Below, in pieces: positions 3 through 41,689 of a stretch of 64,000 nucleotides of DNA. This DNA is from a virus. Below the pieces are notes generated by a model. The model was not told the DNA's origin. It did no database searches and worked only from the letters and a program-made list of their open reading frames with translations. A program made the translations under genes and the position numbers. Positions within the stretch are counted from its first letter, which is position 1; every line of letters begins with the position of its first letter. The DNA lies in the IMG/VR virus record IMGVR_UViG_3300025141_000016, positions 1 through 64,000 of that record, one strand, 5' to 3'.

Positions 3-125
3 ACAGCCTATCAAGATGGTCGCCCGGAGCATGAGATCGGGCAAGCCGCCCGTGTTTTGCGTAAGGGACTCGTAGAGGCTTCCGCCGATGTTCGTGTGGC
101 TCGCCACAGGGGCCGGACGAGATGA
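3..125 (+). CDS. C-terminal fragment of an upstream protein
   Basis: An open frame enters from the left edge and ends at the TGA that overlaps the ATG of the terminase gene (ATGA), so about 40 C-terminal residues are visible. The tail is basic (RVARHRGRTR) and contains the RVA-type peptide found in other head proteins here. Its position directly before the large terminase would suit a small terminase subunit or another head protein, but too little is present to identify it. Confidence 0.6.
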   Translation, partial: TAYQDGRPEHEIGQAARVLRKGLVEASADVRVARHRGRTR

Positions 126-2050
126 GCCTTGCTGACCTCGCTGCCGCCGTAGGACGGCGCTCTGTTGACGAAGCGGTTGATGAGAGCGTGGACATAATCA
201 CCTTCATCGAGTCCCAATGGGGACTCGGACTACGGTTGTTTCCCGTCCAGCGTGTGATCTTGAAGGCGCATTATGGGATGCCCCTCGATGACAATGCCGA
301 GGGTTTCCCCCTTGATGGGCCTGTTCCTACGGACCACCCATCTTTTCCTACGGCCTCTTTGGATGAAGACGGGTGCTACCTCTACCGTATCGTTGTTGCC
401 GACTTTCGCCGCGATAACCCACAATACATGACGGAGGCTGGGTATCTCCGGCACTTGTTTGACGAGGGGCGCTGCAACATCCGTGAAGTGGTTGCGGGGG
501 AGCAACGACGGGAGATGGTGCTCTCCGTGGGCCGCCGCTCGGGCAAGACTCTGATCACGTCGTGCATCGTGGCCTACGAGAACTACCGGTTGCTTCTGAA
601 AGGCAACCCCCAGCGGTACTACGGCTCGTCACAGTCGAACGTGATCCAGTTGATCTCGGTTGCAACGGACAAGGACCAAGCGGGGCTCCTTTACCAAGAG
701 GCTGCGGGACACTTCACCAAGTGCGATTTCTTCCGACCTTACATGGCGAACGCCACCCAGTCGTTTGCCACGTTTCAAACGCCCTTTGACATTGACCGGT
801 ATGGTTCCTATGCGGACAACCCCAAAGCCCGGTACAGCCTCAAGGTGACCTTCCGGTCTTGCGTGGCCAAGGGGCTCCGAGGTGGGGCCAACATTCTTGT
901 GGCATTGGATGAGGTGGCTCACTTCGGGGAGAAAGGTCAGGCCAGTGCCGATGAGGTCTACCAAGCCGTTGAGCCGAGCACCCGTACTTTCAGTCCCAAA
1001 GACCCCGCCAACCTCACCCGTCCTACCGGGGAGAACGAGGGTCGAATCATCTTGATCTCATCCCCTCTCGGGAAGCAGGGGCTTTTCTACAAGCAGTTCC
1101 GGCTTGGCTTTGGGAACAACAAGGCTGCCGACAACCTGCTGTGTATCCAAGCGCCGACATGGGAGGTCAACCCGACAGTGCCCGCCGAGACGTTTGTTGC
1201 CTCTTACCTCAAAGATCCCAACGTCTTTTTCACGGAATACGGAGCAGAGTTCACGGACAGGACGCGGGGGTGGATTCCAGATGCGGCGGATCTGCTGGCA
1301 TGTGTGGACCCTACTGCTCGCCCCAGGCTGCGAGGGCCGACCCGTGCTCCTCACTTCATGGGGCTCGACGTGGCTCTGGTGGGTGACTACACCGCTGTAG
1401 CCATTGGCCACAACGAGCCATCGGGTGAGGTGGTCCTCGATCACATTGAGCGGATCCGGGCCGGAGAGGGTGACTTCGTAGGCCAGGAACGTCTGGAGTT
1501 TGATGACGTGGCGGATTGGGTCTACGACTTGTCCCGGCGCTACTACATCACGGATGGGATCTTTGACCAGTGGGCCGGGATCCCGATGGAACAGGCGTTG
1601 AGGAAGCGGGGGCTCTCGACGCTGAAATCGGTTCACCACACTCGGCAGTTATCGAGCCAAATGTTCCAGAACTTCAAGGACATGATGTTTGACAAGAGAC
1701 TGGTCCTCTACAACTGGCCTTTGCCGGAGGGGGAGGACCACTGTGCCTACCTCGCGGAACTGCTTGAACTCCAGGCAGACCACATCAGCAAGTACATCGT
1801 GAAGGTCGAGGCCCCCAACATCGAGGGCAAACACGATGACTTTTCGGATGCCCTTGTTCGGATGGTGTGGAGTGCCACGACCAACTCGACCAAGGTGGTG
1901 AGGATGGTGGGGTCCAAACGGTATAGTGGAGAATCTGTTGCGGTTTCTCGTTTTGGTCGGAAGGCCACGGCACTCAAAGGTCGGAGTGGTTCTCATCCTT
2001 CACGCATGATCCCCAAGGGGGGCCGGGGTTCCGGGGGCACTGGTCGGTAG
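122..2050 (+). CDS. terL: Terminase large subunit (TerL), DNA-packaging ATPase/nuclease
   Basis: The 642-residue product is the motor that pumps phage DNA into the prohead through the portal and cuts it. Seen directly: a Walker A loop (GRRSGKT, about residues 137-143), a Walker B strand ending in acidic residues (LVALDE, about 259-264), and a C-terminal RNase H-like nuclease with GLDVALVGDYTA (Asp near 416) and DDFSDAL (Asp near 575). Length and domain order are normal for TerL. Its stop codon TAG is part of a promoter-like motif (2045-2059). The portal gene follows after two small genes, the usual packaging arrangement. Confidence 0.95.
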   Translation: MSLADLAAAVGRRSVDEAVDESVDIITFIESQWGLGLRLFPVQRVILKAHYGMPLDDNAEGFPLDGPVPTDHPSFPTASLDEDGCYLYRIVVADFRRDNPQYMTEAGYLRHLFDEGRCNIREVVAGEQRREMVLSVGRRSGKTLITSCIVAYENYRLLLKGNPQRYYGSSQSNVIQLISVATDKDQAGLLYQEAAGHFTKCDFFRPYMANATQSFATFQTPFDIDRYGSYADNPKARYSLKVTFRSCVAKGLRGGANILVALDEVAHFGEKGQASADEVYQAVEPSTRTFSPKDPANLTRPTGENEGRIILISSPLGKQGLFYKQFRLGFGNNKAADNLLCIQAPTWEVNPTVPAETFVASYLKDPNVFFTEYGAEFTDRTRGWIPDAADLLACVDPTARPRLRGPTRAPHFMGLDVALVGDYTAVAIGHNEPSGEVVLDHIERIRAGEGDFVGQERLEFDDVADWVYDLSRRYYITDGIFDQWAGIPMEQALRKRGLSTLKSVHHTRQLSSQMFQNFKDMMFDKRLVLYNWPLPEGEDHCAYLAELLELQADHISKYIVKVEAPNIEGKHDDFSDALVRMVWSATTNSTKVVRMVGSKRYSGESVAVSRFGRKATALKGRSGSHPSRMIPKGGRGSGGTGR

Positions 2051-2672: not shown

Positions 2673-2996
2673 TTGAGTCGATACCGCTCCAGTAATGCCC
2701 CCACGGATACTGACCGTCAGATCCAGGCTCTCCTCGACCGCGCCTCCCGCTCGGTAGGGGAGGCGATCCGTCTGGCTTCTTCGGCTCCTGTGGCGGCTGG
2801 TCGTGGGAAACGTCGGGTGTCAGGGGACTTGGAGCGGGCGATGGCAGCCCTCCAGACGGTTCGATATATCGGAGCATCCCCCACAGGCCGCGATGAAATG
2901 AGCGAAGTCGAACTCAATCGCCTCCATCGGGAGCGCCTGTCGAATGAAAGGGCCGAGCGTCGTGCAGCGGTGAAGGAGCAGATCGATGTCGGATAA
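2673..2996 (+). CDS. Small basic protein upstream of the portal, unknown function
   Basis: A 107-residue, Arg- and Ala-rich, probably helical protein (many RxxR and ExxxR patterns). The start is TTG at 2673, five bases after GAGG; no better ATG exists. Its 3' end overlaps the portal start by 11 bases, so the two are likely translationally coupled. A head-joining or portal-accessory role would fit the position, but there is no motif to support this. Confidence 0.65.
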   Translation: MSRYRSSNAPTDTDRQIQALLDRASRSVGEAIRLASSAPVAAGRGKRRVSGDLERAMAALQTVRYIGASPTGRDEMSEVELNRLHRERLSNERAERRAAVKEQIDVG

Positions 2997-4707
2997 AACG
3001 ACCTCCGGTGACGGTGTTCCTGTTCGCAAGGTCAAGTCTGGCGACGGGAAGCGGAAAGCGAAGACGGGCAAGCCCCGTCGCGTCACTTCCTCCATGATGA
3101 GAGCCCACAATCGCACAGCCAGCTTCTCGTCAAGCATGGGGAACTCCGAGGCTGTTGAAGGGTTTGGCGGCAACTTCTACTCCCCAGAACTATCTACGGA
3201 CTTCTTGGAGTTGCCGCAGAGTCTCCATGAGCAGTGGAACTACTACCGGTTTTTCTACCGGAATGAGCCTTTCGTTGGTCAGGCGGTGGACCTCCACACG
3301 GAACTGCCGATCAGCAAGGTCAGGATCGGGATGGCTCACGCCAAGAATCGTGAGATCGCGACTGCCGCTACCCGTTTTTGCGAGCGTTGGGCGAAGCGCA
3401 TCCATCTCCTCGACAGGCTGTTGGCTATCACCCATGACCGCAACCTCATCGGAGAGGTCTTCGTCTGGTGTGAGGATGCCAATGGGGAGATGCCCCGAGA
3501 GATCCGTGAAGAGGAGCGCCGGACACTGACCGAAGACGGGGAAGTCAATGAGGAGTGGGTTGAGTACGATGACGCAGATGAACGCGCCGTCAAGTGGCTC
3601 AAAAAGAACTACAAGGGGTGGACGAACATGCGTGTTCTGCCCCCCGAACAAGTCCAGATGCAGAGTTTCAACTTCACTGATGAGCGCATCTTTGAACTGA
3701 TCCCTGACAGCAAGACGAAGGACATTGTTGAGAAAGCCCGGATGGGGGACAAAGAAGCTAAACGCATCGTGGAGTCGATGCCTCCCGAGGTCGTCCAGGC
3801 GGTCACGGCGGGAGAGAACATCCCTCTCAACACTGACCCCATGGCAGGGTCATTCATTCATTACGTCGCCAACCGCAAGTCAGACTACGACCCCCGAGGC
3901 CGTTCCATTTTGGAACGCTGTATGCGTGCTCTGGTCTACCGGGACAAGCTGCGGCAGGCGCAGACCAGCATCGCTTCCCGGCACATGACCCCGATTCGGA
4001 TCGTGTCTGGGGATGACCTTGACATAGCGGATGTGGAAGCCTTGCGGGAGCAGGTAGACAACGCTCTGCAAGACCCCGACTACTCGATCATCGCGAACTT
4101 TGAGGTCAGGTGGGAAGAGATGGGTGCTGATCAGCGTCTACTCGATCTCTCGTCCGAATATGACCTCACTGACCGTCAGTTGTACGCTGGGCTCGGTGTG
4201 ACCGAGGGGCTTCTCTCTGGTGAGAGTGCCTACGCCGGGGACCGGATCAACCTTGAAGTCATCAACACGCGGTACATGCTGCTCCGTGAACAACTCCAAG
4301 ACCTCGTTGAAAACTACTTTTTCAAGCCGATGTGTGCTCGCATGGGTTTCGTGGAGGAGGACGAGGACGGAGAGGAGCGCGTGATTGTTCCCACCTTGTC
4401 GTTCACTCGACTGGCCCTGCGGGACAATCGGGACACGTTCGATGCCCTCTACAATCTCTACACCAAGGGCAGCTTGGACGTGGACACCATCTTGGAACTG
4501 CTCAACCTTGACCCCATCGCGGTCAGGGAGCGCATCGAGCGTGACCTGTTCACCGTCAATGACCCCACGTTCAATGAAGTGCTCCGAGGTGTCTACGGAG
4601 ATGCAGGTCGGGCTATCGCGGAGAACTCCAATGCAGCCGAGAAGATTGCCAAGGTGCTTGGCTTGAAGTTTGAGAAGCCCGCCGAGGAAGAGGGCGGCAG
4701 GTTCTAA
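2986..4707 (+). CDS. Portal protein
   Basis: The 573-residue protein forms the ring through which DNA enters the head and to which the tail attaches. Evidence is overall pattern rather than a single motif: position just after TerL, normal portal length, an N-terminal stretch with repeated aromatic residues (WNYYRFFYRNEP) as in contractile-tail phage portals, a central region with predicted long helices, and a C-terminal helical wing and tail. The first 40 residues are strongly basic and probably disordered. Translation starts inside the end of the preceding small gene. The following gene is separated by a promoter-like motif at 4711. Confidence 0.8.
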   Translation: MSDKTTSGDGVPVRKVKSGDGKRKAKTGKPRRVTSSMMRAHNRTASFSSSMGNSEAVEGFGGNFYSPELSTDFLELPQSLHEQWNYYRFFYRNEPFVGQAVDLHTELPISKVRIGMAHAKNREIATAATRFCERWAKRIHLLDRLLAITHDRNLIGEVFVWCEDANGEMPREIREEERRTLTEDGEVNEEWVEYDDADERAVKWLKKNYKGWTNMRVLPPEQVQMQSFNFTDERIFELIPDSKTKDIVEKARMGDKEAKRIVESMPPEVVQAVTAGENIPLNTDPMAGSFIHYVANRKSDYDPRGRSILERCMRALVYRDKLRQAQTSIASRHMTPIRIVSGDDLDIADVEALREQVDNALQDPDYSIIANFEVRWEEMGADQRLLDLSSEYDLTDRQLYAGLGVTEGLLSGESAYAGDRINLEVINTRYMLLREQLQDLVENYFFKPMCARMGFVEEDEDGEERVIVPTLSFTRLALRDNRDTFDALYNLYTKGSLDVDTILELLNLDPIAVRERIERDLFTVNDPTFNEVLRGVYGDAGRAIAENSNAAEKIAKVLGLKFEKPAEEEGGRF

Positions 4708-6096: not shown

Positions 6097-7656
6097 ATGG
6101 CCCAACCACCTTATCTTCTCGACGTACTACAGATCGAACCCGGCAGTGGGGATACCCTCACCATCGCTCGGGATTCGACAGCAGGTGCGATGGAGTTCGT
6201 GGACGCTGTGGTCACTGGCGGCGTTCTGCTCCCGGCTCTCGTTGGCTTACGCAACGTCACCGGAATCTTTGTCGTGGGTCGAGCGGGCGACGGAGCCCCT
6301 TACACCACGATCCAATCAGCGATAGACGCTATCCCTGTGTCTTCCAGTGCGGCTGCACCCTCGGTGGTGCTGATTCTCTCTGGGGTCTACACCGAGAACC
6401 TGACCATCCAGCGCGATGGGGTCTGTCTCGTGGGGCTCGGTGGGGTCACCATCGCGAACAGCGGTGCCTCGGACACGATCACTGTCAGCGCGGCTACCGA
6501 CTCGACTCCCCAGGACGCGCTGTTCCGGGGGCTCACGGTTACGAATGACCAAGCGGCCCAGTCCTGTATCAACATCCTCGGTGCGGATACCTTTGCGACC
6601 GCAACGGCTACTGTGGTCAACGCCCCCCTCGCTACGGGGGACACTCTTACCATTGGGGGAGTGGTGCTCACCGGCACCGCAGCCGCCCGCACCAGCGGAA
6701 GTGATGACTTCTGGGCTGGGGGTGGAACGGTGGATGCCATCGCTGCGGAGATCGTGGATGCGATCAACGACCCAGCCAATGGGTTTACCGCTACGGCTAC
6801 CGCTACCTCCGCACTCGGCGTGGTCACTTTGACCGCCGTTACGGCGGGGTCTGGCGGAAACGCCATCACCTTGGCCTCAAGCACCACACCTGCGGCTGGG
6901 ATCACCCTTTCTGGTGCCACCTTCGCAGGCGGGACTTCAGCAGGGTCCATGGTCGGGGATGGCCTCATCACTATTGAAGATTGCGTCCTCGTCGCCTCTG
7001 GCGCTGGGGGTTTTCAGGTCAACGCTGACACCGTGGGCCATATCCGTGTGCGTGGAGGCACCTTCCGAGGCTCCGCTTCTAACTCTCTTTCCCAAGCCGC
7101 CAACTGCGCGGCTTTCCGGCTGTCGGGGATTGAGTGGATCAATGACATTCAAGTTGCCTACGACACCACTCTTGACCGGCCCAGTGACACCGCCTGCGCC
7201 TATGAACTGACCTCGTTGGGTCGGGTTCACGCTGTTCTGTCGAATCTATCTGGGGCTGGGACGCTTACGCTCCGCGCCTGTGCCGAAGTATCCACGATTT
7301 CCCAGGATGGGGACCAGACTCTCGATGTGCTCCACTCGACGCTCGGGACGCTCACCCTCGACACCACTACCGCTGCGACCCTACGGCAGAGCACCCGAAC
7401 CACATTGACGGTTGCCGGGGGAACCCCAACCCTCCAAGAGCCCGTCTTCGTCGGCACCCAGGCATTTCTTGGGACACTGACCCAGACGATCACGTTGCCT
7501 ATCACACAGCCAGATGCCCTTTACACCGTGCTCTTGGAGAGTCCCGTTACCACTTCCGTATTGGCGGTGACGAACAAGACAACCACTACTTTTGACATTG
7601 AAGCGGCACCTGCTCTAACGGGTACCGTGACCTATTCCGTGGTCCGCGCCCTTTAG
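6097..7656 (+). CDS. Beta-helix (pectin-lyase-like) fibre or spike protein with inserted small domain
   Basis: The 519-residue protein contains a right-handed beta-helix pattern: DGAPYTTIQSAIDAIP then a run of short strands (LILSGVYTENLTI, DGVCLVGLG), as in phage tail spikes and carbohydrate-acting proteins. Around residues 165-280 a separate module is inserted (GDTLTIGGVVLTG ... IAAEIVDAIND ... GNAITLA). The same module type is found in the fibre proteins at 41.7, 52.8 and 60.5 kb. No catalytic residues can be assigned. It stands alone among head genes, so it may be a head fibre or a displaced adsorption protein. Cleanly separated from its upstream neighbour by a promoter-like motif. Confidence 0.75.
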   Translation: MAQPPYLLDVLQIEPGSGDTLTIARDSTAGAMEFVDAVVTGGVLLPALVGLRNVTGIFVVGRAGDGAPYTTIQSAIDAIPVSSSAAAPSVVLILSGVYTENLTIQRDGVCLVGLGGVTIANSGASDTITVSAATDSTPQDALFRGLTVTNDQAAQSCINILGADTFATATATVVNAPLATGDTLTIGGVVLTGTAAARTSGSDDFWAGGGTVDAIAAEIVDAINDPANGFTATATATSALGVVTLTAVTAGSGGNAITLASSTTPAAGITLSGATFAGGTSAGSMVGDGLITIEDCVLVASGAGGFQVNADTVGHIRVRGGTFRGSASNSLSQAANCAAFRLSGIEWINDIQVAYDTTLDRPSDTACAYELTSLGRVHAVLSNLSGAGTLTLRACAEVSTISQDGDQTLDVLHSTLGTLTLDTTTAATLRQSTRTTLTVAGGTPTLQEPVFVGTQAFLGTLTQTITLPITQPDALYTVLLESPVTTSVLAVTNKTTTTFDIEAAPALTGTVTYSVVRAL

Positions 7657-11562: not shown

Positions 11563-14280
11563 ATGCGGGGATCCCCGTCCCAAGTAGCGCGTCGATGGAT
11601 GCAGGCTCGTGTCGAGCCTCTGAACCCCGAGCAGGCCAAGAAGTTCCGTAAGGAAGTGCTCATGCTTGCGAAGGCGGCGGAACGTGCGTCTTCTTACGCT
11701 GATGTGGAGCAGATTGTCCCTGCGGTGGCGAAGTGGAGACAGGCGTTTGACTATTACAACGCCGCTATCCGCAAAGAGTTGGAGGCTCGTGTCCGAGAGG
11801 GTGAGAATCGGAACATCCCTGTCCCCGAGGGTGCGACCCGACCGGATGCAGGGTGGGCAAAATACTACATCGAAAATGCCAAGCCGGTCTGGGATCTCTC
11901 TTACGAGGTAGGTTCGTTGCCGAGCGTCCCCAAAGTCACGAATCGACACGGTGGCGCTTTTGAGGAGCCCGAGGTGGCTCGTGCTCGGATGGTTGAGTTC
12001 TGGCTGGGCCGGGGGGATTCTCAACAGGAGGCAGAGCGGAAAGTAGAGGATTACCTGTTGGGGTCGCCCTCGTGGACCCGAGAGGAAGCCGAACAGAAAG
12101 CGGTGGATCGGTGGAAGGGGGAATCCCGTAAGTGGGCCAACCGTGTGCGTCGGAAGGCCAGGAAGACTTGGGCTTTCTACGCGGATCTGGCCGCATGGGC
12201 ACAACGGTCTATGGGAGGGGCGCGGGAGATAGCGATTGCGGTCCCCGACGAGGAAGTCGTCTCCCTGGAAGGGTTCCGTGTCATCTTCCGGGGCTTTGCG
12301 GAGTCCCCCTACCAAGACAAACTCCCCGCTGTGAAGCACGGGTTGAAGATGTACCGGCAGTTGGCCCAGAAGCGAGCCCCCATCCTGCTGAAACGGCAGA
12401 CACCGATCTTCATCGAGTGGACGTTTGAGCCGACCACCTCATCCAGTGCGGGAGCCTACTACCTGGGGAGTAAGATATTCGTGACCCCATGGAAGATCGG
12501 CAAGGACATTGGTGACTTCGTGAAGACGATGGCTCACGAGATGGGCCACCACATTTTCAGGACTTACCTGTCGGGGGCTGCAAAAAAGGCGTGGACTGCG
12601 TTCATTCGGGGTGACTACAAGGAACTCGACCTCCGCGAAGCACTTGCCATCATGCAACGGGTGGGGGCAAGAACCATCGTTGGTGATGAGTTGGCCGAGG
12701 AAGACCCCATCCTCTACCTCCAGATGAACACCCTGATGCACGACTCCAGATTCAAGTACATGGACCTTTTCAGTGTTGAGGACATTCAAGAATACCTCAA
12801 TGCAGGGAAAGACCCTATGGTCGCCGTTCCCATCAATCCCATCACAGGGTACGCGGGGAAAAACCCCGAGGAGGCGTTCTGTGAGGCTTTGGGCCTGTTA
12901 GTGGCCTATGGGAAAAAGGCGGTCCTGGGTCCGGTTCGGATGATGCTCCGGGGTGTTCTGCCGGAAGTCCGCATAGCGTCCGAGAAGACCATGACCGAGC
13001 GGGTAGCCCAGCGTAAGCACGCTGAAATGACGGGTGAGGCTTCCGTCGCCTTGATGAAATGGCTCTCCAAGGTCACCCAACGGATAGGGGTGGCGCGACA
13101 CGTCTACGTCGTCGGGGGAGCCGTCAGGAACTTTCTGATCGACAAGCCCATCAAGGACATTGACATGGTGGTGGACTCCCTCTCCTTACGAGGGAACCGG
13201 GACGCTGCTTGGGTGGCAAAGGAGATTGCCCGCGCCATCCCTACCAGCACGGACATTGTGACTGACGCTCTGATGGTGTCCAAGGTGTTCATCCAGGGGG
13301 AGTGGGACTTGGATGGCCACCAGATGAAGGATGAGGTCATCGAGATCGTCAACGCCCGAGCCGAGATTTACGAGCAGGACGAGGAGGGCAACTACCTGGG
13401 ACACAAGCCCGTCCGAGTTGACCCCACGACCTTGGAAATCGACGCAACTCGACGGGAGTTCACTTTCAACACCCTCATGTGGTCGTTGCTCTCGTTGGCC
13501 GATGGCCCGGAAAAGGCTGAAATCATTGACCTTACAGGGTGTGGAGTGCGGGATTTGGAGGCTCGCGAGATGCGTTGCCCCCAGGATCCCGACAAGACCT
13601 TCACGGAAGACCCCACACGGATCATCCGCACCATCAAGTTTGCGTTCAAGTACGGCTTCAAGCTGCCCCCGGACGTGAAGGCAGCGGCTACCCGGCAGGC
13701 TCGGGGACTGAAGCGAATCCCCTCAAAGGCGTGGGGAGCCCTTCGCGACATTGTGCTGGAGAACCCCCAGTACAAAAAGGCTCTGGGAGTCATGGATGAC
13801 CTCGGGGTCATTGACGTGCTCGCTGACATGGTGCGCGACGACCAGCAGTTCGCCACCACCCTGCTCAACTACTCCCAGAAGCGGGGAGTGGCGTTCATGT
13901 TTGACCTCATGGACCTTGGGATTCCTGTGGGTGCGCCCATGGGATTCATGGACTCTGCCCAACAACGCCAGTTCCGAGCGTTGTCTGTGGACATGGACCG
14001 AGATGAGGCCCTCCACTACCTTGAAGCCATCAAGAACCCAGGGGTGGCGTACAAAGATAAGAAGTTCGTGCCTTCCCTGGCCAGGGAGTACGGGGTGGAC
14101 CCGAAGAAGATGCGGGATTTCATGCCCGTGGTCACCCAGATTGGCAGGGATCTTCTTCTCGATGACCCCGAACTTCTGCACGATGCCCCTCGGCTGAAGC
14201 GAATGGTGAGGCGAGATTTGGGGTCCGCAAACGTGAGGGTGGCCTCGGAGTGGTTGCCGACTACTCGGGGAGGGTTTTGA
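11563..14280 (+). CDS. Fusion: zinc metallopeptidase-like domain plus CCA-adding/poly(A)-polymerase-type nucleotidyltransferase
   Basis: The 905-residue protein joins two enzyme modules. First, after a helical N-terminus, a zinc metallopeptidase signature: MAHEMGHH (His325, Glu326, His329), with acidic residues in NPEEAFCEA (436-441) that could provide the third ligand. Second, from about residue 505, a class II nucleotidyltransferase head as in tRNA CCA-adding enzymes: YVVGGAVRN (Gly518-Gly519, Arg522) followed by KDIDMVV (Asp532, Asp534). RREFTFN and EDPTRIIRTIKFAFKYGF follow, matching the conserved motifs of the family. The modules are separated by VRIASEK ... ERVAQRK, and another VRVASEW stands at the C-terminus. 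Substrates are unknown; the combination is unusual. Confidence 0.85.
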   Translation: MRGSPSQVARRWMQARVEPLNPEQAKKFRKEVLMLAKAAERASSYADVEQIVPAVAKWRQAFDYYNAAIRKELEARVREGENRNIPVPEGATRPDAGWAKYYIENAKPVWDLSYEVGSLPSVPKVTNRHGGAFEEPEVARARMVEFWLGRGDSQQEAERKVEDYLLGSPSWTREEAEQKAVDRWKGESRKWANRVRRKARKTWAFYADLAAWAQRSMGGAREIAIAVPDEEVVSLEGFRVIFRGFAESPYQDKLPAVKHGLKMYRQLAQKRAPILLKRQTPIFIEWTFEPTTSSSAGAYYLGSKIFVTPWKIGKDIGDFVKTMAHEMGHHIFRTYLSGAAKKAWTAFIRGDYKELDLREALAIMQRVGARTIVGDELAEEDPILYLQMNTLMHDSRFKYMDLFSVEDIQEYLNAGKDPMVAVPINPITGYAGKNPEEAFCEALGLLVAYGKKAVLGPVRMMLRGVLPEVRIASEKTMTERVAQRKHAEMTGEASVALMKWLSKVTQRIGVARHVYVVGGAVRNFLIDKPIKDIDMVVDSLSLRGNRDAAWVAKEIARAIPTSTDIVTDALMVSKVFIQGEWDLDGHQMKDEVIEIVNARAEIYEQDEEGNYLGHKPVRVDPTTLEIDATRREFTFNTLMWSLLSLADGPEKAEIIDLTGCGVRDLEAREMRCPQDPDKTFTEDPTRIIRTIKFAFKYGFKLPPDVKAAATRQARGLKRIPSKAWGALRDIVLENPQYKKALGVMDDLGVIDVLADMVRDDQQFATTLLNYSQKRGVAFMFDLMDLGIPVGAPMGFMDSAQQRQFRALSVDMDRDEALHYLEAIKNPGVAYKDKKFVPSLAREYGVDPKKMRDFMPVVTQIGRDLLLDDPELLHDAPRLKRMVRRDLGSANVRVASEWLPTTRGGF

Positions 14281-14780
14281 TGCTGACCCCATCCGCCGTG
14301 CGGGTAGCTGCGAGGGCAGCCTCCTATGAACGAGTGTTTTACAGCCCGACCCCGTTCACGCGATTCCGGGCCGTTTCCCAGAAAGCCCCCACCCTTATGG
14401 GGAAGCCCCAGGGGCTTTGGTACTCGTGTGGTAGTTCGTGGGAGGACTTCACTCGGAATGAGATGGGGGGTTCCCGATTGGGTGCCTACGCCTACCGGAT
14501 CGAGATCAACCCCTCTGTGATGCTCATCATCAAGGACAAGGCTTCCTTCCTGTGGTTTGAGGAGAAATACGGGGTTCCCGCCAAGTTCGGGGGGGAGGCT
14601 ATTGATTGGGGGAGGGTGGCTCAACACTACCCCGGCATCGAAATCTGTCCGTACCGGTCGAAGCAACGAATGGACCACGATTGGTACTATCCATGGGATG
14701 TGGCAAGTGGTTGCATCTGGTCTGGGGTCGCGATCAAGTCGGTGGAAGAAATGTCTTCCCTTGAACGTGGGTCGCGGTAG
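14280..14780 (+). CDS. Small protein with a WDVASGCIW motif, unknown enzyme-like family
   Basis: The ATG at 14280 shares its A with the TGA of the previous gene (TGATG), so the two are coupled. The 166-residue protein starts PSAVRVAARAAS, the head-region peptide, followed by one compact domain: GLWYSCGSSWEDF (about residues 51-63), a YRIEINPS strand, an IDWGRVA helix, and WYYPWDVASGCIWSG near the C-terminus. This pattern looks like a conserved family rather than a random ORF. An ADP-ribosyltransferase-like fold is possible but not demonstrated. Its TAG stop is part of the next promoter-like motif. Confidence 0.7.
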   Translation: MLTPSAVRVAARAASYERVFYSPTPFTRFRAVSQKAPTLMGKPQGLWYSCGSSWEDFTRNEMGGSRLGAYAYRIEINPSVMLIIKDKASFLWFEEKYGVPAKFGGEAIDWGRVAQHYPGIEICPYRSKQRMDHDWYYPWDVASGCIWSGVAIKSVEEMSSLERGSR

Positions 14781-14815: not shown

Positions 14816-17800
14816 ATGCGCCCGAAGGTGGCCAAATCCTACAACCGCATAGCGATGTACGACTTCGACGGAACCTTGTTCCGAAGTTGGGAGGCTACAC
14901 CTGAATGGTGGGCCGGGTCATCCCTCGATACTGGTCCCTACTCGTTTTTCGTGCGCCACGAGTCTCTGGGTGAGCCCTGTGTTCCTGATTCCCCGGAATC
15001 CGATTACTGGATCACCAAGACGGTGGCAGCAGCCAAGAAGGACTCCTCCGACCGAAATGTCTTTGTGGTCGTAGTGACTGGGAGGGTTCGGACACACAAA
15101 CGGCGAGTATTGGAACTTCTCAAAAGCAAAGGGATCAATCCCGAGGCTTCCTACTTCAATCCAGGCATGTCGGCTGCCAAGTTCAAGGTGGCGGTCCTCC
15201 GCAACTTGTTGGCGGGCCACCGAATGGTCAGTGCGGTGGATGTGTGGGAGAACGAGAATCAGACGTACTACGAGAACGCCCTACGCCAAGCGGCAAAGAA
15301 ACTGGACCGTGAGATCACGGTGACGATCCACAGCATCCATGTGCCGCCCAAGCCTCTCGTGTGTGGTCCCCGCGATTTTGGGTTGTCGAAAGATGCCTCC
15401 GTCGGTCGGGTGGTGGCCAAGTATCAGGGGAAGAAAGAAGTCCCCACGGCTGATGGGAAGGGTACGTCTACGGTCTACGAGTACGGCCCCCGTCAAGTGG
15501 CCAAACGCCACAAGGAAAAGGCCAAGCGGATCGAATCCCTCCGGCAGAAGATGGCGGAACTGCGGCAACAGGCTCGGGGTGACCTCACGAGCAAAGACCC
15601 TCAAACGCGCCTCACGGCGTTGGCAGTCTGTCTCATGGATGAGACTTACGAGCGCGTGGGCAACGAGAAGTCTGCCGAGGAAGGTCACCATGGGGTCACC
15701 AACTGGACGGCAGGTCATGTCTCTCTCGGGGACAAGAGTGCCACCGTCAAGTACACCGGGAAGTCTGGGGTCAAGCAAGAGAAGACGGTCACCAACGCTC
15801 GGGTGTTGAAGGCCCTGCGGGAAGCCATGAAAGGCAAGGGTAAGGGCGACAAGATCCTGTGCGATGGGGATGAGTGCGACATTCTCGCCAAGGATGTGAA
15901 CGCCTACCTCAAACCATTCGGGGTCACCGCGAAGGACATTCGGGGGCTCCATGCCAACGAGGAGATGCGTCGTCGTCTTCAAGAGGTACGAAAGGGTGGT
16001 CCCGATCTCCCGGTCGCCCGGAAAGAAAAGGACAAGATCCTGAAGGCCGAGTTCCAGCAAGCCTTGAACGATGCTGCCAAAGCTGTTGGCCACGAAGCCA
16101 GCACCCTACGGAGGCAGTACCTTGTACCGACCATGGAGGAGACATTTATCCACGACGGCACCGTGATTGACCAGTTGGCCAAGAAAGCTGGGGGCAGCCG
16201 CATCCTCTACTACATCGGTAAGAACAAGGCACAGCCCAAGCCCAAGCGGGTCAACCACTGGAAGGACCGGGGGCAGCCCGAACCGGCTTGGGTGCGTCCG
16301 TGGCTCGATGCTCCGGTTCAAAATGCCGTGTTTCTCACCACCAATCCCTTCGGTGTGGCAACGAACCACGGGGTGGTGGGGCATGTCTATGCCTATGACG
16401 TTCCCCAGTGGGTGCTCAAAGAGGCCAAAGGGCTCCACCGCTATGATTGGGCTACCGAGGTCATCATCCCCGATGTGCTGTGGAAGCACGTCAAGTTTCG
16501 GGGCAAGTCGATGGACCGGCAGGAGTTCGACCAGATGATCAGGGAGGGCCAGAACGAGCGGTCCTTTGCCCAGTGGAATCGGAACATGGGATTGCGAGAG
16601 AAGCGCAAGCCAGAGTTGGTAGGACAGCCTGTTTGGGTCACCGCCACCAAGTCGGATGCGGAGAAAGAGGAGGAAGAAGACCAGAGGTTGATCCGGCAGA
16701 GCCCCAAGAAGAAGCCCCCTCGTCGGGATCTGGAACGGGGTCGTGTTGAGGACACACACGAGACGGATGCCGATGAGGACCAAGACCGGAAGGACCGCTC
16801 CCGCAACTTCAAGGACGCGGCTGCTTGGGTCGCCCTCCGGTATGCCGCTGGGGCTGCCGCAGCCGAGGCCGATGACGAAGGTAGTTCAGGCGGTGGGGTC
16901 AGCGGTAAGTTCCTCATGTTCTTGGAGGAAAAGGGTGGCGATCAGGTCACCAACCCGGACACCGGGAACAAGGTCAAACTCAAAAGTCTCAAAGGCCCGA
17001 AGGGGAAGGAGTTACAGAAGCGGGAGTTCCAGAAGTGGCTGGACTCCGAGAGCGACGGAGATGCCGGTGCCGAGCCCTCGGGACCGAAGCCGAAACCGAA
17101 GCCGAAACCGAAGCCGACAGGCCCCTCTGCCGATGCGAAACATGCAGAGTCCCTGGATAAAGTAGTGGGTGCCCAACAGAAGCGTGAAGATTTGGTCGCG
17201 GAGGGAGAGCCCTTTGATGTGGAGGCCATCAAGGCAACCATACGTGAGGAGTTCTCCGCGATCCCTGGGGTAGATCCCACCACGATCAAAAACACCCTGG
17301 GGTCTATGACGTTGGTCCCCCCCAAGGGATCCCACGACACTCCCGAGATGCTACTGGAGGCAGCGGTGGCGAGCCTCACCAAAGCCAACGGTGGGGCGGT
17401 CAAGGCTTTCGGCAAGAAGACCAAGATTGTCGAGAAGAAAGCATTGGAACAGGTCACGGAACTTGCGGGGGAAGCCGCCAAGGGGTTGAGCAAGTCCCTG
17501 ATGCCACATGACTTGCTCGCCGTCGCGGCTCACATGGAAGCGGCTAAAGACGAAGCGGTGGCAGAGATTCTGGATGGACGTGCCCGTAAGGATGCTCGGT
17601 CCAAGGCGCAGTTCGCGGATCGGGTGCTGGAAAGGATCGATGGTGACAACCCGCCCTCTCCCGAGGAGATCGCGGAAGCCCTGGTGGCGAAGCGGGCAGT
17701 CGGGGTGCTTGATGATCCCACGATGCTTTACCCCCACAAGCCCCTGACGAGTTTGAGCACCGAACCGTTGTCGTTCGATAACCCTGGGGCCGAGGCGGCC

Positions 17801-18583
17801 TACCGGGAGAAAATGACCGAGGTGGCTGTTGATGCCATGGACGCTTACCGAACCTTCACCCCGGAGGACCGTGAGACGCATCGCAAGGGGCTGGAAAAGC
17901 ACATCAAGAAAATGACGGAGGGAGGGGACACCGAGTCGGAACAGTACGCCCAAGCCATCTCCCAGATGCGGGGCATGGCGCTTGCGTCAGCCTTGGAAGA
18001 CGGGGACAAGGCCAAGGGGGTCAATCCCACGTTCCAAGCGTTGCTGGTAGGGGCTGACAATGCGGGACGAGTGGAGGAGTTTGCCAGGGTCAACCTTTCC
18101 GGTGCTGCGGAAGGGGATAGTAGTGCCCAGCAAGTATTCCGTGACGTGATGGAAGATACCTCCCATGAAGACATGGCGAAGATGCTTCCAGACGATCATC
18201 CGGCCCAATCTGCCTTGAAGTTGTTGACCGGCTGCCCGTCTGGCGCAGACCCCAACAGTCAGGGGTGCCGGGAACTGGCGAACCTCCCCCAAGATTCCAT
18301 CGACATGCTGAACACGATGGTCAACGATGCGGTGATGGGAGAGGTGCTGTTCACGGATCAAGCCCTGGTATCGGCAGACCCTAACGCCTCGGTCGGGTCC
18401 ATCAAGCAGAAGAAGAAGCAGACCAAGCAGACGGGCAAGGGGAAGTCTTTTGCGGACATGATGGCGGCTTTTCTTGCAAGCCTCAAAGCAGGTAAGAGTG
18501 CCGCGCAGTTGCCCACGGGGATATACGACTTTGATCCTTGGAGGGCATCTATTTCCGGGCAAAGGGATGAGTTCAGCCGGTAG
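14816..18583 (+). CDS. Polyprotein: HAD phosphatase (SAK-like) plus type IB topoisomerase plus long C-terminal region
   Basis: A 1255-residue protein. Residues 9-180 are a HAD phosphatase of the Swiss-army-knife RNA-repair type: YDFDGTLF (Asp16, Asp18), then EWW and VVVVTGR. Residues about 225-450 carry the full type IB topoisomerase active site: Arg280 (YERVGN), Lys316 (TGKSG), Arg376 (KDIRGL), His426 (VGHEAS) and Tyr435 (RRQYLVP). Residues about 460-600 form a separate compact domain, unassigned. Then come a charged linker (HETDADEDQDRKDR), an AAAWVALRYAAG peptide, a (PK)n stretch near residue 760 and a helical, charged C-terminal half. RPKVAKSY and GRVVAKY at domain borders resemble the head-region motif. 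The first two assignments are well supported; processing is inferred. Confidence 0.88.
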   Translation: MRPKVAKSYNRIAMYDFDGTLFRSWEATPEWWAGSSLDTGPYSFFVRHESLGEPCVPDSPESDYWITKTVAAAKKDSSDRNVFVVVVTGRVRTHKRRVLELLKSKGINPEASYFNPGMSAAKFKVAVLRNLLAGHRMVSAVDVWENENQTYYENALRQAAKKLDREITVTIHSIHVPPKPLVCGPRDFGLSKDASVGRVVAKYQGKKEVPTADGKGTSTVYEYGPRQVAKRHKEKAKRIESLRQKMAELRQQARGDLTSKDPQTRLTALAVCLMDETYERVGNEKSAEEGHHGVTNWTAGHVSLGDKSATVKYTGKSGVKQEKTVTNARVLKALREAMKGKGKGDKILCDGDECDILAKDVNAYLKPFGVTAKDIRGLHANEEMRRRLQEVRKGGPDLPVARKEKDKILKAEFQQALNDAAKAVGHEASTLRRQYLVPTMEETFIHDGTVIDQLAKKAGGSRILYYIGKNKAQPKPKRVNHWKDRGQPEPAWVRPWLDAPVQNAVFLTTNPFGVATNHGVVGHVYAYDVPQWVLKEAKGLHRYDWATEVIIPDVLWKHVKFRGKSMDRQEFDQMIREGQNERSFAQWNRNMGLREKRKPELVGQPVWVTATKSDAEKEEEEDQRLIRQSPKKKPPRRDLERGRVEDTHETDADEDQDRKDRSRNFKDAAAWVALRYAAGAAAAEADDEGSSGGGVSGKFLMFLEEKGGDQVTNPDTGNKVKLKSLKGPKGKELQKREFQKWLDSESDGDAGAEPSGPKPKPKPKPKPTGPSADAKHAESLDKVVGAQQKREDLVAEGEPFDVEAIKATIREEFSAIPGVDPTTIKNTLGSMTLVPPKGSHDTPEMLLEAAVASLTKANGGAVKAFGKKTKIVEKKALEQVTELAGEAAKGLSKSLMPHDLLAVAAHMEAAKDEAVAEILDGRARKDARSKAQFADRVLERIDGDNPPSPEEIAEALVAKRAVGVLDDPTMLYPHKPLTSLSTEPLSFDNPGAEAAYREKMTEVAVDAMDAYRTFTPEDRETHRKGLEKHIKKMTEGGDTESEQYAQAISQMRGMALASALEDGDKAKGVNPTFQALLVGADNAGRVEEFARVNLSGAAEGDSSAQQVFRDVMEDTSHEDMAKMLPDDHPAQSALKLLTGCPSGADPNSQGCRELANLPQDSIDMLNTMVNDAVMGEVLFTDQALVSADPNASVGSIKQKKKQTKQTGKGKSFADMMAAFLASLKAGKSAAQLPTGIYDFDPWRASISGQRDEFSR

Positions 18584-19075: not shown

Positions 19076-19609
19076 TTGCGCCGTAACGCCGTAAATAATG
19101 TCAACTGGCAGCAGCGAGCCCTCGCCTTTCAGGTTGGGGACGTTGTGGGGCCGTTTGGCCTATTCGATGCACAGTCGGGCCGCGTCACAGCGGTTTGGCC
19201 TGCCATCGGTATGGTTGATGTGGAGATGGCCTCGGGCAACAAGCGGTATCCAGTCGAAGACCTCCAGCGATTTGACAGTGAGGGTGATTCAGAACCCCCC
19301 TACACTGACTCTGCCCCAGGTGGGCAGCCCACAGTACAGGTGCCCGGTGGCCCCGTTGACAAGTCGGCGGCTCGGGTGGCATATGCCTATCGCAAGGCAA
19401 TCTACTGGGCTGACAAGGACCGACAGTACAGGGCCAACCGAGATGAAATGGCCTCGGGCCAGCCTGGATGCCCTCGTTGTGAAGAACAGCCCCATCTCCG
19501 ACGGGCAGTCTACAAGCGACGTGATGGCAGCAGTGAACGTCTCCTGGGATGCCCAGGTTGCATGTTCCTCATCAAGAGATCCGACATTATGAACCTTGGC
19601 GGCGAGTAA
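19076..19609 (+). CDS. Small protein with SH3-like N-terminus and zinc-ribbon-like C-terminus
   Basis: Starts at TTG 19076, eight bases after GAGG; no suitable ATG exists. The N-terminal half (VGDVVGPFGLF ... GRVTAVWP) has the look of a small beta barrel. A linker with ARVAYAYRKA follows, and the C-terminal part holds two CxxC pairs (CPRCEEQ and CPGCMF) spaced as in a zinc ribbon. Its TAA overlaps the ATG of the protease gene. Unknown role, possibly structural or nucleic-acid binding. Confidence 0.65.
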   Translation: MRRNAVNNVNWQQRALAFQVGDVVGPFGLFDAQSGRVTAVWPAIGMVDVEMASGNKRYPVEDLQRFDSEGDSEPPYTDSAPGGQPTVQVPGGPVDKSAARVAYAYRKAIYWADKDRQYRANRDEMASGQPGCPRCEEQPHLRRAVYKRRDGSSERLLGCPGCMFLIKRSDIMNLGGE

Positions 19610-21045
19610 TGGCGTTCTTGAAGCAGGCGAAGGCAGTTGTCGTCCATCCTCGCATTAGCGGGCGTGTGTGGGGAGGTATCCGTAAGGCTGCTTCTGGTCC
19701 CACGCGGGATCTGACAGCCCAGGCTCGGGAGATTCTGGGTGAGGGCCTTCATTCGGACGACTATCTGGTCACCCACTGCACCATCGTTGCCTCGGTGGAT
19801 GTGGATGCGGTGCCTGGAGTTCGCCTGGGCAACGTCAAGATCGGTAGCGCCACGGTCAACAGGAAGTGGGACGACTACTACATCAAGCCCCAATGCTCCC
19901 AGTTCGTAAACAACAACGGTGACGCTTGGTCCCGGTCGGTGTTGCGGATGGCGTACCCCACGTTTATCGGGGGGCACAACTTCCAAGAGCACGTCCAGAT
20001 TGAGGAACAGAGCAAGGGTCGGATCATCGACGCTGTTGCTCGTGACATAGGGGATTCCCTCTATGTGGACATTCTGGTCGCCACCAGCCGCAAGCACGCC
20101 GCTCTGGTCCAAGACATTCAGTCTGGAAAGATGGCTACCCTGTCGATGGGTTGCACCACTGACTTCACCGTCTGTACCAAGTGCGGCCACTATGCCGTCG
20201 ATGAGACGCAGTTGTGTGAGCACGTTCGCTACGCCAAACTCAATACCTTCATGGATGAGGCTGGGCAGAAGCGGGTCATCGCGGAGTTGTGTGGACACCA
20301 GACCTACGACGAGAACCCTGATGCGCCCGGTGGGGTCAGATTCATTGAAGCCTCATGGGTTGCGGTGCCAGCGTTTGCTGGGGCAGTGATGCGGAACATC
20401 CTCGCTCCTGGCGAGGTGGTTGAAGCCGAAGTCCGTAAGGTCATGGCTTCACCTCCTACCGAGTGGTCTTCACAAGCTGTGGTCAAAGCCGCCAACCTTC
20501 GTGGTGTCCAAGCCTTTGAGTTTGGGGACGAGGAGGGTGAAGGAGAGGGTGAAGGAGGGGGAGAGCCCGCTGCCGATGACGCTGCTCCTTTCCAAGCGGC
20601 TGAAGACACCCTCTACAATGCTTTGAAAAGTCGGGTGGTTGAGCGTCTACAGCGAGAGATCGCACAAGAGAACGTGGAAGACGAGATGGGGTCCGAGGCC
20701 CCAATGGACCCCAACGACAACATCATCAAGGAAGGAGCAGCGCAGAACTATGCCGCATCCCTCCAGATGATGACCCGTGTCGCATCCAGCCCTATTGCCC
20801 TCATTGATGGGGTCGCCACGATCAACTCTTCCTACGGGATTCGGGTAGGTCGTGACGTATATCGAACCGCTTTGCGGGTAGGGGCTCATAGCCAATACCC
20901 TTCCCTTACCCATTTCCGACGAGCGTGCCGCAAGGTTGCTGGTCGCGATTTGTCCTCTGCCGAGATCCGGGTTGTTGTCCGGCTTGGCTCGCTGCTCTCA
21001 CGGTGGGAGCAACACAACAACCCTCCAACCACCCAATCTGAATAG
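19609..21045 (+). CDS. Prohead core protein / head maturation protease
   Basis: The ATG at 19609 overlaps the previous stop (TAATG); an extension to 19549 is unlikely. The 478-residue protein resembles the protease-type prohead core proteins of large phages. It has GGHNFQEHVQ (His123) followed by a strand with YVDILVA, then LSMGC (Ser179), plus cysteines in CTKCGHY and LCEHVRY and an FIEASWVAVPAF segment. His and Ser are candidate catalytic residues of the assemblin-like fold. The C-terminal part has an acidic Gly-Glu stretch and the peptides TRVASSP and RKVAGRD, possibly its own cleavage sites. Position just upstream of the scaffold candidate and capsid genes supports the role. Confidence 0.75.
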   Translation: MAFLKQAKAVVVHPRISGRVWGGIRKAASGPTRDLTAQAREILGEGLHSDDYLVTHCTIVASVDVDAVPGVRLGNVKIGSATVNRKWDDYYIKPQCSQFVNNNGDAWSRSVLRMAYPTFIGGHNFQEHVQIEEQSKGRIIDAVARDIGDSLYVDILVATSRKHAALVQDIQSGKMATLSMGCTTDFTVCTKCGHYAVDETQLCEHVRYAKLNTFMDEAGQKRVIAELCGHQTYDENPDAPGGVRFIEASWVAVPAFAGAVMRNILAPGEVVEAEVRKVMASPPTEWSSQAVVKAANLRGVQAFEFGDEEGEGEGEGGGEPAADDAAPFQAAEDTLYNALKSRVVERLQREIAQENVEDEMGSEAPMDPNDNIIKEGAAQNYAASLQMMTRVASSPIALIDGVATINSSYGIRVGRDVYRTALRVGAHSQYPSLTHFRRACRKVAGRDLSSAEIRVVVRLGSLLSRWEQHNNPPTTQSE

Positions 21046-23323: not shown

Positions 23324-23353
23324 TCAACCACCTTCCCACATTTGGAGACAATC

Positions 23354-24226
23354 ATGTCCGTATCGAACTCTGTGAAGGCCAAGCTGATCAGCGACTACAT
23401 TAGTACCGCCGCTGGTCGGGCCAAGTTGGCCGCCTCAATGACTCAACCCCTCCGGCTTCGCCGGGACTACCATAGTGTAGGTAGAAAGACCTTTTTGGTC
23501 GAGCAGTTGCCAGATGGCGCTCTGCCTATCTACGATAAAGACCCCGATGTTACGGCATTCGTGGTCGGTGAGGAAGGTGAGAACATCATCGCCGTCACCA
23601 AGCCCCGTCGTGTCATCTTCCCTCTCTTTGAGATCGCCTCCAACCCGGAGATCCCACTGACGCAGGTGAAGGAACGTCGCTTCGATCTCATCGAGCGGTC
23701 GCAGGACCTCGCTCGTGCCCAGATCCAGGCTGCTGAAGACGAGCGTGTCTTCGCCACCCTCGATGCTGTCGCTGCCAACGGCTTCGACTCGGTTGGTGCG
23801 GTCAACGCCGACACCGCCGTCGTCGCACCGATCAGTGGTGACGTGCTCGCGGATGCTTTCTCGCTCATCGAACGCCACGATCTGCGTGTTGCTCGCGTCT
23901 TTATGAACGCTCGCGACTACGCCGATCTGCGGAAGTTTGGCCGGGACATTCTCGACATCGAAACCCAGCGCGACCTGTTGAAGACTGGTCTGATGGCAAC
24001 CCTTTGGGGAGCCCAGATCATCGTCAGCCGCCTCGTGCCGGTCGGCACCGTGTACGTCTGCTGTGAGCCCGAGATGTTCGGTCGGATGCCTGTCCGTACC
24101 GAGTTGACGGTCCTCTCGGCTGACGATCCCAAGGCGCGGACCATCGGGTTCAGTTGCTTTGAGAACCTGGGCATCGGTTGTTTCAACCCGCGTGGCCTCG
24201 CTCGTCTGACTGTCACCCGTCCGTAG
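23354..24226 (+). CDS. Major capsid protein, HK97-like fold
   Basis: The ATG at 23354 follows TTGGAGACAATC. The 290-residue protein has the features of a compact HK97-type capsid protein: a helical N-terminal arm, a long spine-helix region (RFDLIERSQDLARAQIQAAEDERVF), a peripheral domain with FMNARDYADLRKFGRDI and a central beta region (LWGAQIIVSRLVPVGTVYV). Near residue 30 the sequence AKLAASMTQ resembles the [KR]-x-A-[AS] peptide of other head proteins and may mark removal of an N-terminal propeptide (inference). Position after protease and scaffold and before a strong terminator supports the assignment. Confidence 0.82.
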   Translation: MSVSNSVKAKLISDYISTAAGRAKLAASMTQPLRLRRDYHSVGRKTFLVEQLPDGALPIYDKDPDVTAFVVGEEGENIIAVTKPRRVIFPLFEIASNPEIPLTQVKERRFDLIERSQDLARAQIQAAEDERVFATLDAVAANGFDSVGAVNADTAVVAPISGDVLADAFSLIERHDLRVARVFMNARDYADLRKFGRDILDIETQRDLLKTGLMATLWGAQIIVSRLVPVGTVYVCCEPEMFGRMPVRTELTVLSADDPKARTIGFSCFENLGIGCFNPRGLARLTVTRP

Positions 24227-30617: not shown

Positions 30618-30618
30618 C

Positions 30619-40493: not shown

Positions 40494-41689
40494 TGCCTGC
40501 ATCACCATGGTCTGCCGCTGTTCGCGCTAACGTCTTCCTGGCCCCCGGAGCCCAACGGGACGCTGCGTTCCGTCTACGGACGAGTCAACCCACCGATGTC
40601 TTTGCTGGTGACTGTGACCAGAGCCTCAACCTCCTCGTATTTGAGGATGTGCTCACAGGCGGTGGCACCACCTCTTACATCAGTGCCCAAGCTGGGGTCA
40701 GGATGCAGACGGCGGCTGCGGCGGGGGACAGGGTGGTTCGCCAATCCAGAGAGTATGTGCGCTATCTCCCCGGAAAGAGCCAGATGGTGATGGTTTCCGT
40801 TGACTTCCAGGGAAGCACGGCAAACGTGATCAAGAGGGCGGGCTACTTCGATGACAACTCCACTGGATACGGCGCGGGGATGTACTTCTATGTCGATGCA
40901 GGTGGGATCAAGACAGGCCACCGCGTAGGTGCATCGGACACCCTGGTAGATCAGGTCAACTGGAATGTGGACAAGTTGAACGGCGGTGGACCGTCTGGGG
41001 TCACGTTGGACACCACGAAACCACAAACGATGGTCTTCGTCTTCGGGGGGATGGTTCCCTCGGTGATGCGATGGGGTTTCATCCTCGATGGGAACATCGT
41101 TATTTGTCACGAGGAGTTCCAGACCAACACAGCCGCAGGCCCCCAGATGCCTCACCCCTCTCTCCCTGTCCGTTGGGAACTGGAGAGCACCGGGGGTGTT
41201 GGGGAGATGTTCGCTTTCTCGGCCTCGGTCCAATCCGAGGGGGGCTTTGACGACAAGGGACGCGCTTCGGGGCTGCCTCGCAACGCTCCTCTCTCATTGA
41301 CGGCGGTTGGGGTGAAGCCTCTCCTGTCAATCCGGCTGAAGACCTCGTTCAAGCGGGGACAAGTCCATCCTACTTCCCTCTCGGTCCTGGCCGATGGAAG
41401 CGAGAACTACTACTACCTGCTTCTCCTTCGGCCTACTCTGACGGGTGCCACTTTCGCGACTGGGGTGGACCATGTAGAGGGGGACATAGCGGCTACCGCT
41501 TATGGTGGCGGCCATATCGTTGGTAGTGGGTGGGGAGAGGCCGGGAAGGTTCTCAACGTGCCCCTCGACGGCATCCTACTGGGGGCTGATTATGCGGGAA
41601 CGACGGACATTCTGACCTTGGCGGTCAGCCCCGTTGGCACTTCCCCGACTGACTTCTATGCCGCGATCAACTGGCGGGAGTTCATCTGA
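40493..41689 (+). CDS. Tail/adsorption protein
   Basis: The 398-residue protein is coupled by TAATG to the gene before and by TGATG to the one after. It has a beta-rich pattern of alternating hydrophobic residues with RYLPGKSQMVMVSVDFQ (about residues 89-105) and GMYFYVDAGG, recurring in phage tail and adsorption proteins, and a C-terminal NWREFI. It likely sits between the two paralogous fibres in the particle. Precise role unknown. Confidence 0.7.
   Translation: MPASPWSAAVRANVFLAPGAQRDAAFRLRTSQPTDVFAGDCDQSLNLLVFEDVLTGGGTTSYISAQAGVRMQTAAAAGDRVVRQSREYVRYLPGKSQMVMVSVDFQGSTANVIKRAGYFDDNSTGYGAGMYFYVDAGGIKTGHRVGASDTLVDQVNWNVDKLNGGGPSGVTLDTTKPQTMVFVFGGMVPSVMRWGFILDGNIVICHEEFQTNTAAGPQMPHPSLPVRWELESTGGVGEMFAFSASVQSEGGFDDKGRASGLPRNAPLSLTAVGVKPLLSIRLKTSFKRGQVHPTSLSVLADGSENYYYLLLLRPTLTGATFATGVDHVEGDIAATAYGGGHIVGSGWGEAGKVLNVPLDGILLGADYAGTTDILTLAVSPVGTSPTDFYAAINWREFI

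Follow-up and report, generated by a model that had tools for sequence, protein, structure and literature searches.

Zincins are a hub domain of polyvalent proteins and have been unified with the lethal-factor fold, according to Iyer et al. 2017 (PMC5512222). The same paper lists 12 metallopeptidase clades, some of which may have no model in Pfam, and describes Pol-beta nucleotidyltransferases (NTases) that occur in polyvalent proteins as minimal domains, mostly in Firmicute conjugative elements, and that are thought to modify proteins. In phage P1, DarB bears an N-terminal capsid-targeting sequence, and the internal proteins of T4 likewise have capsid-targeting sequences (PMC9024508), while the propeptides of SPN3US contain multiple prohead-protease sites (PMC10052503). 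Free-standing CCA enzymes of jumbo phages have been interpreted as serving tRNA repair (PMC7824862), and antiphage toxSAS are described as modifying the tRNA 3' CCA end (PMC11559606).

In this study we focus on a protein of 905 residues encoded in a window of 64,000 nucleotides (the whole stretch of DNA that was analysed), which is the start of a 297,104-bp virus record, hereafter G000. The source is a giant tailed phage, whose major head protein (MCP) shares 83% identity with that of the uncultured huge phage LR745208, 50% with that of Tunturiibacter phage Tunturi_5 and 41% with that of Bacillus phage G, its closest named phages by this protein. Our preferred reading, which we hold with about as much belief as doubt, is that the protein is a two-module cargo of the polyvalent type that enters the head and reaches the host together with the DNA, and that its CCA-type nucleotidyltransferase (NT) would act on host tRNA.

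Results

A two-module protein in the head operon

The open reading frame encodes a single chain that starts at an ATG, upstream of which lies the purine-rich GTAGGGGG (Table 1). An earlier note, made from the sequence alone, had pointed to a metallopeptidase motif (HEMGHH) and a nucleotidyltransferase motif (GGAVRN..DID) in the same protein; both are present as described, cannot be put down to chance, and are kept in 17 and 26 relatives, respectively. The central place of the gene among the head genes is likewise borne out, with TerL and the portal protein encoded upstream, and the head maturation protease and the MCP downstream. Genes were called on stretches with a greedy longest-ORF rule, and some of the small ones are certainly wrong.

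The fusion of a metallopeptidase to a CCA-type NT is upheld by Pfam and PHROG matches, by structural models and by the conserved motifs of both halves. A second metallopeptidase-NT fusion, found at the loci L059, L060 and L061 (metallopeptidase+...+NT, 1510 aa, of an architecture unlike that of the window's fusion), indicates that we are not dealing with an assembly accident limited to one contig. Elsewhere in the record, relatives' homologues of the proteins encoded at window positions 6097-7656, 41689-46869 and 60535-64000 and at G000 121797-123896 share a segment of ~80-120 residues, possibly a common virion domain.

Table 1 The 905-residue protein, its modules and motifs, and the surrounding genes, with positions in the window.
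Feature	Position	Strand	Evidence or remark
TerL	122-2050		Upstream of the 905-residue protein gene; PHROG profile
Portal protein	2986..4707	+	Upstream flank; PHROG profile
905-residue fusion, predicted zincin metallopeptidase and class II CCA-type NT	11563..14280	+	Pfam, PHROG, models, relatives
N-terminal border peptide SPSQVARRWMQAR, residues 4-16	11572..11610	+	Degenerate RVAxRYL copy; 6.8 bits, alone not significant
Predicted metallopeptidase module, residues 20-470; zincin core ~224-466	11620..12972	+	Relatives, model, BFVD match
HEMGHH zinc motif, residues 325-330	12535..12552	+	Invariant or nearly so, 17 relatives
EEAFCE region, probable third zinc ligand E437/E441	12871..12885	+	Both Glu invariant, 17 relatives
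Inter-module linker RIASEKTMTERVAQRKHAEM, residues 470-490	12970..13032	+	Internal ATG 12991 at the NT gene start position of relatives
NT module, residues 494-890, predicted head/neck/body/tail	13042..14232	+	Pfam, relatives, profile, model, fold matches
NT motif A GGAVRN...KDID, residues 518-534, catalytic Asp pair D532/D534	13114..13164	+	26 relatives
NT motif B RREFTFN, residues 630-636	13450..13470	+	Intein insertion site in L075, L081, L082
NT motif D EDPTRIIR, residues 682-689	13606..13629	+	26 relatives
C-terminal border peptide NVRVASEWLPTTR, residues 890-902	14230..14268	+	Degenerate; alignment to relatives
176-aa protein, phrog_8582 (unknown function)	14250..14780	+	Border peptide PSAVRVAARAASYE close to the N-end
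1255-aa protein: HAD phosphatase ~9-185, border peptide ASVGRVVAKYQGKK 194-207, topoisomerase IB ~198-458, further C-terminal regions	14816..18583	+
Head maturation protease	19549..21045	+	Downstream flank; phrog_18299, E 1.3e-12
MCP	23342..24226	+	Downstream; PHROG profile

The nucleotidyltransferase module

The C-terminal half matches the Pfam PolyA_pol head over residues 514-671 (E 7e-14, 52.7 bits, cut-off 23), and the 905-residue protein matches the PHROG annotation 'tRNA nucleotidyltransferase' with an E-value of 1.6e-23. Relatives of this half are encoded at 42 viral loci. Motifs A, B and D vary little or not at all across 26 aligned relatives (38-63% identity): no variation is seen at G, G, R, N, D532 and D534 of motif A, nor at D, P, R and R of motif D, the nucleotide-selection motif of class II enzymes.

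A profile built from the 26 sequences has the Thermotoga maritima CCA-adding enzyme as its top match in the PDB (E 3e-25). The model (pLDDT 89.6, pTM 0.81) displays a head followed by a confident all-helical stretch (model residues ~205-417), and the fold search against the PDB returned 46 matches at E<=1e-3, every one of them a class II CCA-adding enzyme or poly(A) polymerase, the best being the CCA-adding enzyme 3h38 (E 5e-13). The global TM-scores by query length are modest (~0.42-0.50), a level to be anticipated if body and tail diverge in their details. The earlier note had held that a half without neck and body would speak against its reading; the model is instead confident along the whole length, and the PDB alignments span 390-460 columns. 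Judged from sequence and model, this half is an intact-looking, full-length class II nucleotidyltransferase of the CCA type.

Inteins of ~450 aa sit exactly in motif B at three loci (L075 4462-6774, L081 2428-10848 and L082 4174-12591), with the junctions RREFTFN/C...HN/TLMW, the +1 residue varying in L075. At L081 and L082 the intein-bearing NT gene adjoins the portal gene. Inteins typically occupy active-site motifs of functional enzymes. Together, the invariant motifs A, B and D and the motif-B inteins may be taken as a sign of selection for NT catalysis.

The named NCBIfam equivalogs, CCA and pcnB included, are matched far below their cut-offs (pcnB best by E-value, 1e-19), so the matches do not fix whether the specificity is for CCA, for A only or for poly(A). 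We consider it unlikely that the NT is packaged and serves another substrate, either tailing other RNAs in the manner of a poly(A) polymerase, thereby marking host mRNA, or over-extending tRNAs like the MenT toxins. The class II superfamily does include poly(A) polymerase, in line with the pcnB match, and polyvalent proteins often target host functions (PMC5512222) and MenT toxins lengthen tRNA acceptor ends (PMC10435456). However, CCA-adding enzymes are ranked first and poly(A) polymerases lower in both the profile and the fold searches, and the profile alignments to solved enzymes reveal, upstream of motif B, an R-x-E-x-Y element common to CCA enzymes.

The metallopeptidase module

Relatives of the N-terminal half are encoded at 22 viral loci, and HEMGHH and EEAFCE are common to the 17 aligned sequences. 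The model (pLDDT 82) has the layout of a zincin, with H325-E326-x-x-H329 in helix 316-335 and E437/E441 in helix 435-449. No match at E<=1e-3 was obtained in the fold search against the PDB; the best matches beyond this threshold are zincins, namely lethal-factor chains (E 0.04) and M1 aminopeptidases. In the BFVD viral library the module finds phage peptidases (E 6e-7 to 3e-6), one of them annotated 'putative endopeptidase family M34' (E 2e-6). Sequence comparison with solved structures gave no credible match, and the Pfam PolyVal metallopeptidase models are matched by none of the 17 relatives. The HExxH helix, followed further along the chain by a helix that bears a Glu ligand, marks the N-terminal half as a zincin metallopeptidase, gluzincin or M34-like, as far as motifs and model can tell. 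A paralogue is encoded in G000 at 124830-127847 (hhalign 98.6%).

From its location between portal and protease, the protein could be thought of as a morphogenesis factor, whose metallopeptidase helps head maturation and whose NT domain is carried along in a structural capacity; a stand-alone peptidase relative encoded shortly after the MCP gene at L004/L005 would agree with this. Such a role is nevertheless very improbable in our view: a separate head maturation protease exists, the metallopeptidase, usually a separate gene in relatives, is absent from many of their head operons and located elsewhere in LR745208, and the catalytic residues of the NT are invariant.

A constant nucleotidyltransferase with changing partners

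In most relatives the NT comes soon after the portal or a few genes on, with topoisomerase IB and the head maturation protease downstream of it. Proximity to the portal on its upstream side, to topoisomerase IB and the protease on its downstream side, or to both, is seen at L025-L027, L030, L031, L038, L039, L049, L054, L058, L059, L062, L066, L070, L081, L082 and L107. The form of the gene changes from locus to locus: it is separate at L026, L038, L058 and L062, fused to the topoisomerase at L025, L027 and L070, part of an X+NT+topoisomerase chain at L107, and joined to both metallopeptidase and topoisomerase in one 2493-aa chain at L031. At L033-L035 a tandem NT-NT arrangement stands outside any visible head operon; in this 948-aa ORF the second copy is without part of the region preceding motif B. 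Several records have the NT without the metallopeptidase, or the metallopeptidase without the NT.

In the NT tree the window's sequence clusters with the NT+topoisomerase and separate-NT forms, and the L059-L061 fusion falls in another clade. The partner being interchangeable, the link between metallopeptidase and NT is less meaningful than the conserved neighbourhood of NT and topoisomerase IB. Moreover, the stretches L036, L051-L053, L055 and L068 contain the NT but show no head genes, and the large relatives G016 and G017 lack it, so that it is accessory. Among 84,980 prokaryotic species genomes a pattern scan yielded a single occurrence of the NT family, on a MAG contig with TerL and portal genes of its own.

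Two loci have NT genes of unusual form. At L072 (5935-9517, the same as L085) an insertion of ~1 kb, which resembles a homing-endonuclease or intron element, splits the gene in two. At L011 (5694-9395, from the 735-kb phage LR756501) a 1233-aa protein has a deaminase-like N-part and repeated DPYGEEDWE linkers, a different border sequence, followed by an NT whose C-terminal part is longer.

The linker between the two modules bears on the origin of the window's fusion. Its segment TMTERVAQRKHAEM can be aligned to MSFGPSARRVARRKQAD, with which the free-standing NT of L026 begins, and from this alignment and the ATG at 12991, which would be a relic, the metallopeptidase appears to have been inserted in frame ahead of a formerly separate NT gene. 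No ribosome-binding site of the TAGGAG type, which several neighbours use, precedes this internal ATG, and separate translation of the NT from it was discarded for want of a strong ribosome-binding site.

Phage tRNAs and the neighbouring HAD-topoisomerase gene

No tRNA gene was found in G000. Several relatives carry dozens of tRNA genes, many of them without an encoded CCA in G006 and G013. Of the 44 tRNAs read in G005, a genome with the NT, 41 already encode CCA; of the 9 read in G016, a genome without it, 7 lack CCA. Since G000 has no tRNA, and since the NT does not track CCA-less tRNAs among the relatives, maturation of phage tRNAs explains the gene poorly and is an unlikely reason for its presence; we set that candidate aside, and infer that host tRNA fits better as the target.

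The same counts bear on the possibility that the protein is an ordinary late enzyme, never packaged, which maintains or matures host or phage tRNAs and owes its place in the head operon to operon history. Free-standing CCA enzymes are indeed common in jumbo phages (PMC7824862), and the tRNA-rich relatives with their many CCA-less genes would give such an enzyme work. Yet the phage studied here has no tRNA gene at all, G005 has the NT though its tRNAs mostly encode CCA, G016 does without it though most of its tRNAs do not, and neither the constant place beside the portal nor the fusions are expected of a housekeeping enzyme. We find this rather unlikely, and retain the packaged cargo acting on host tRNA as our preferred reading.

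The earlier note had also seen, in an RNA-repair-type HAD domain encoded next door, a sign of a package for repairing or modifying host RNA. The HAD domain is real (HAD_SAK_1, 31.1 bits, cut-off 25.6), but it belongs to a topoisomerase IB protein (Topoisom_I, E 2.9e-24), and the 297-kb record, which may be incomplete, yielded neither an RNA ligase nor RtcB; a complete RNA-repair package is thus not supported. A package with a ligase was rejected as well, the sole weak RNA-ligase match (G000 114478-116526) reading by inspection as an NAD+-type DNA ligase. Repair of the tRNA 3' end needs no ligase, however, so CCA repair may take place without one. The HAD/topoisomerase IB gene shares the neighbourhood seen around the NT in relatives, and a short form of the HAD phosphatase-topoisomerase IB pair occurs in LR745208 (L040 14202-15728).

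A recurrent peptide at module borders

Module borders carry a recurrent basic peptide with the consensus SASRVAARYL. A PSSM was built from 20 copies of G000, the 905-residue protein being left out. At 14 bits or more it gives 32 matches in G000 (0.3 expected from shuffles) and 22 in the relatives' loci (against 0). The copies are located near N-termini (often at position 7-9), at C-termini and between modules. Known domain cores, which make up about half of the residues, contain none of the 40 matches of at least 12 bits (p ~3e-12, a value that is indicative only, as the cores were hand-trimmed and the sequences are mutually related). Furthermore, the peptide is present in 0 of 55 TerL, portal, protease and MCP proteins versus 42 of 118 module proteins, and other G000 proteins that have it bear ART-PolyVal domains. 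A search for the motif string in the open-access literature found none.

In the 905-residue protein the copies are degenerate: the best one reaches 6.8 bits and those of the linker and the C-end score below zero. Significance is not attained from this protein alone, and the copies are recognised solely by alignment with relatives. At the N-end of the peptidase module SPSQVARRWMQAR aligns with SRRVAQRFLRA (L004), AHRVLARFLIA (L007), LRVAGRYLSA (L010) and VNRVVARYATE (L009), and NVRVASEWLPTTR corresponds to TRVAMRWAS (L026/L044) and IRVASRYMEAR (L034/L035/L064). By analogy with described phage signals, the border peptide is most likely a packaging (capsid-targeting) signal, a processing site, or both.

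SASRVAARYL-type copies occur, for example, at window 28689-30617 and 30571-32925 and at G000 124830-127847, 190585-195144 and 231505-235248, and the peptide-bearing multi-domain proteins of G000 comprise ART, GNAT-like, metallopeptidase and other domains. At L009 (4294-10048) three metallopeptidase-domain genes are consecutive, and the middle one reads NUDIX-topoisomerase IB-metallopeptidase, its modules being separated by border peptides. The N-terminus of the MCP (window 23342-24226 and its homologues at L039/L040; RIISEYIKT at L039) is similar to the border peptide.

Discussion

We infer that the 905-residue protein would be made late, together with the head proteins, that it is probably loaded into the head, and that it would then enter the host with the DNA. 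Once inside, the NT would most likely work on host tRNA 3' ends in the opening minutes of the infection and rebuild CCA ends harmed by host tRNA-targeting defences. By analogy with other polyvalent proteins, the metallopeptidase may cut the cargo chain or act on a host protein, and the border peptide would guide packaging, processing, or both. Delivery with the particle, which the earlier note had suggested, is plausible from the conserved position between portal and protease, the polyvalent architecture and the recurrent border peptide.

What the earlier note observed is thus confirmed, and its reading is supported in part. We regard the protein as a variant of polyvalent cargo in which a full CCA-type enzyme is the constant part, with the border peptide as a candidate sorting signal of wider interest. 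A wider proposal, which we put forward tentatively and with more doubt than belief, is that this phage group sorts into its head, and perhaps cleaves, a large set of mix-and-match enzymes by means of the SASRVAARYL-like peptide, one constant member being a virion-delivered CCA-adding enzyme that would rescue the ends of host tRNAs from tRNA-attacking defences at entry. If this is true, a ready-made tRNA-end repair enzyme arrives with the phage genome and would account for the survival of giant phages under tRNA-directed defences that act before phage gene expression. The border peptide would then offer a simple sequence rule to predict the head-bound proteins of a large group of uncultured jumbo phages, and might serve to tag proteins that are to be loaded into phage particles.

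The likeness to polyvalent proteins lies in a chain with at least two unrelated catalytic domains, in the zincin partner and in the virion-gene context between portal and protease; ART-PolyVal proteins are also encoded in G000. Unlike the minimal Pol-beta NTases of polyvalent proteins in the available sections of PMC5512222, the 905-residue protein has a full-length class II NT with predicted neck, body and tail, and those sections contain no CCA-type NT and no border peptide. Its metallopeptidase, moreover, matches no Pfam PolyVal model. With class II tRNA nucleotidyltransferases such as the T. maritima enzyme (3h38) it shares motifs A, B and D and the head-neck-body-tail order, and no HD domain was detected; it differs from the known ones in its identity of ~20%, its scores below the named-subfamily cut-offs, its fusion to a peptidase and its location in a phage head operon. 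The predicted peptidase fold is like that of the M34-like zincins of PaBG, Erwinia phage pEa_SNUABM_5 and Achromobacter phage Motura (the BFVD matches above), but those jumbo-phage proteins stand alone, at ~320-360 aa, without an NT. Finally, the border peptide may be compared, by analogy of role, with the short signals of P1 DarB and the T4 internal proteins, which direct enzymes into the head; unlike these N-terminal signals, it is placed at N-termini, at C-termini and between modules.
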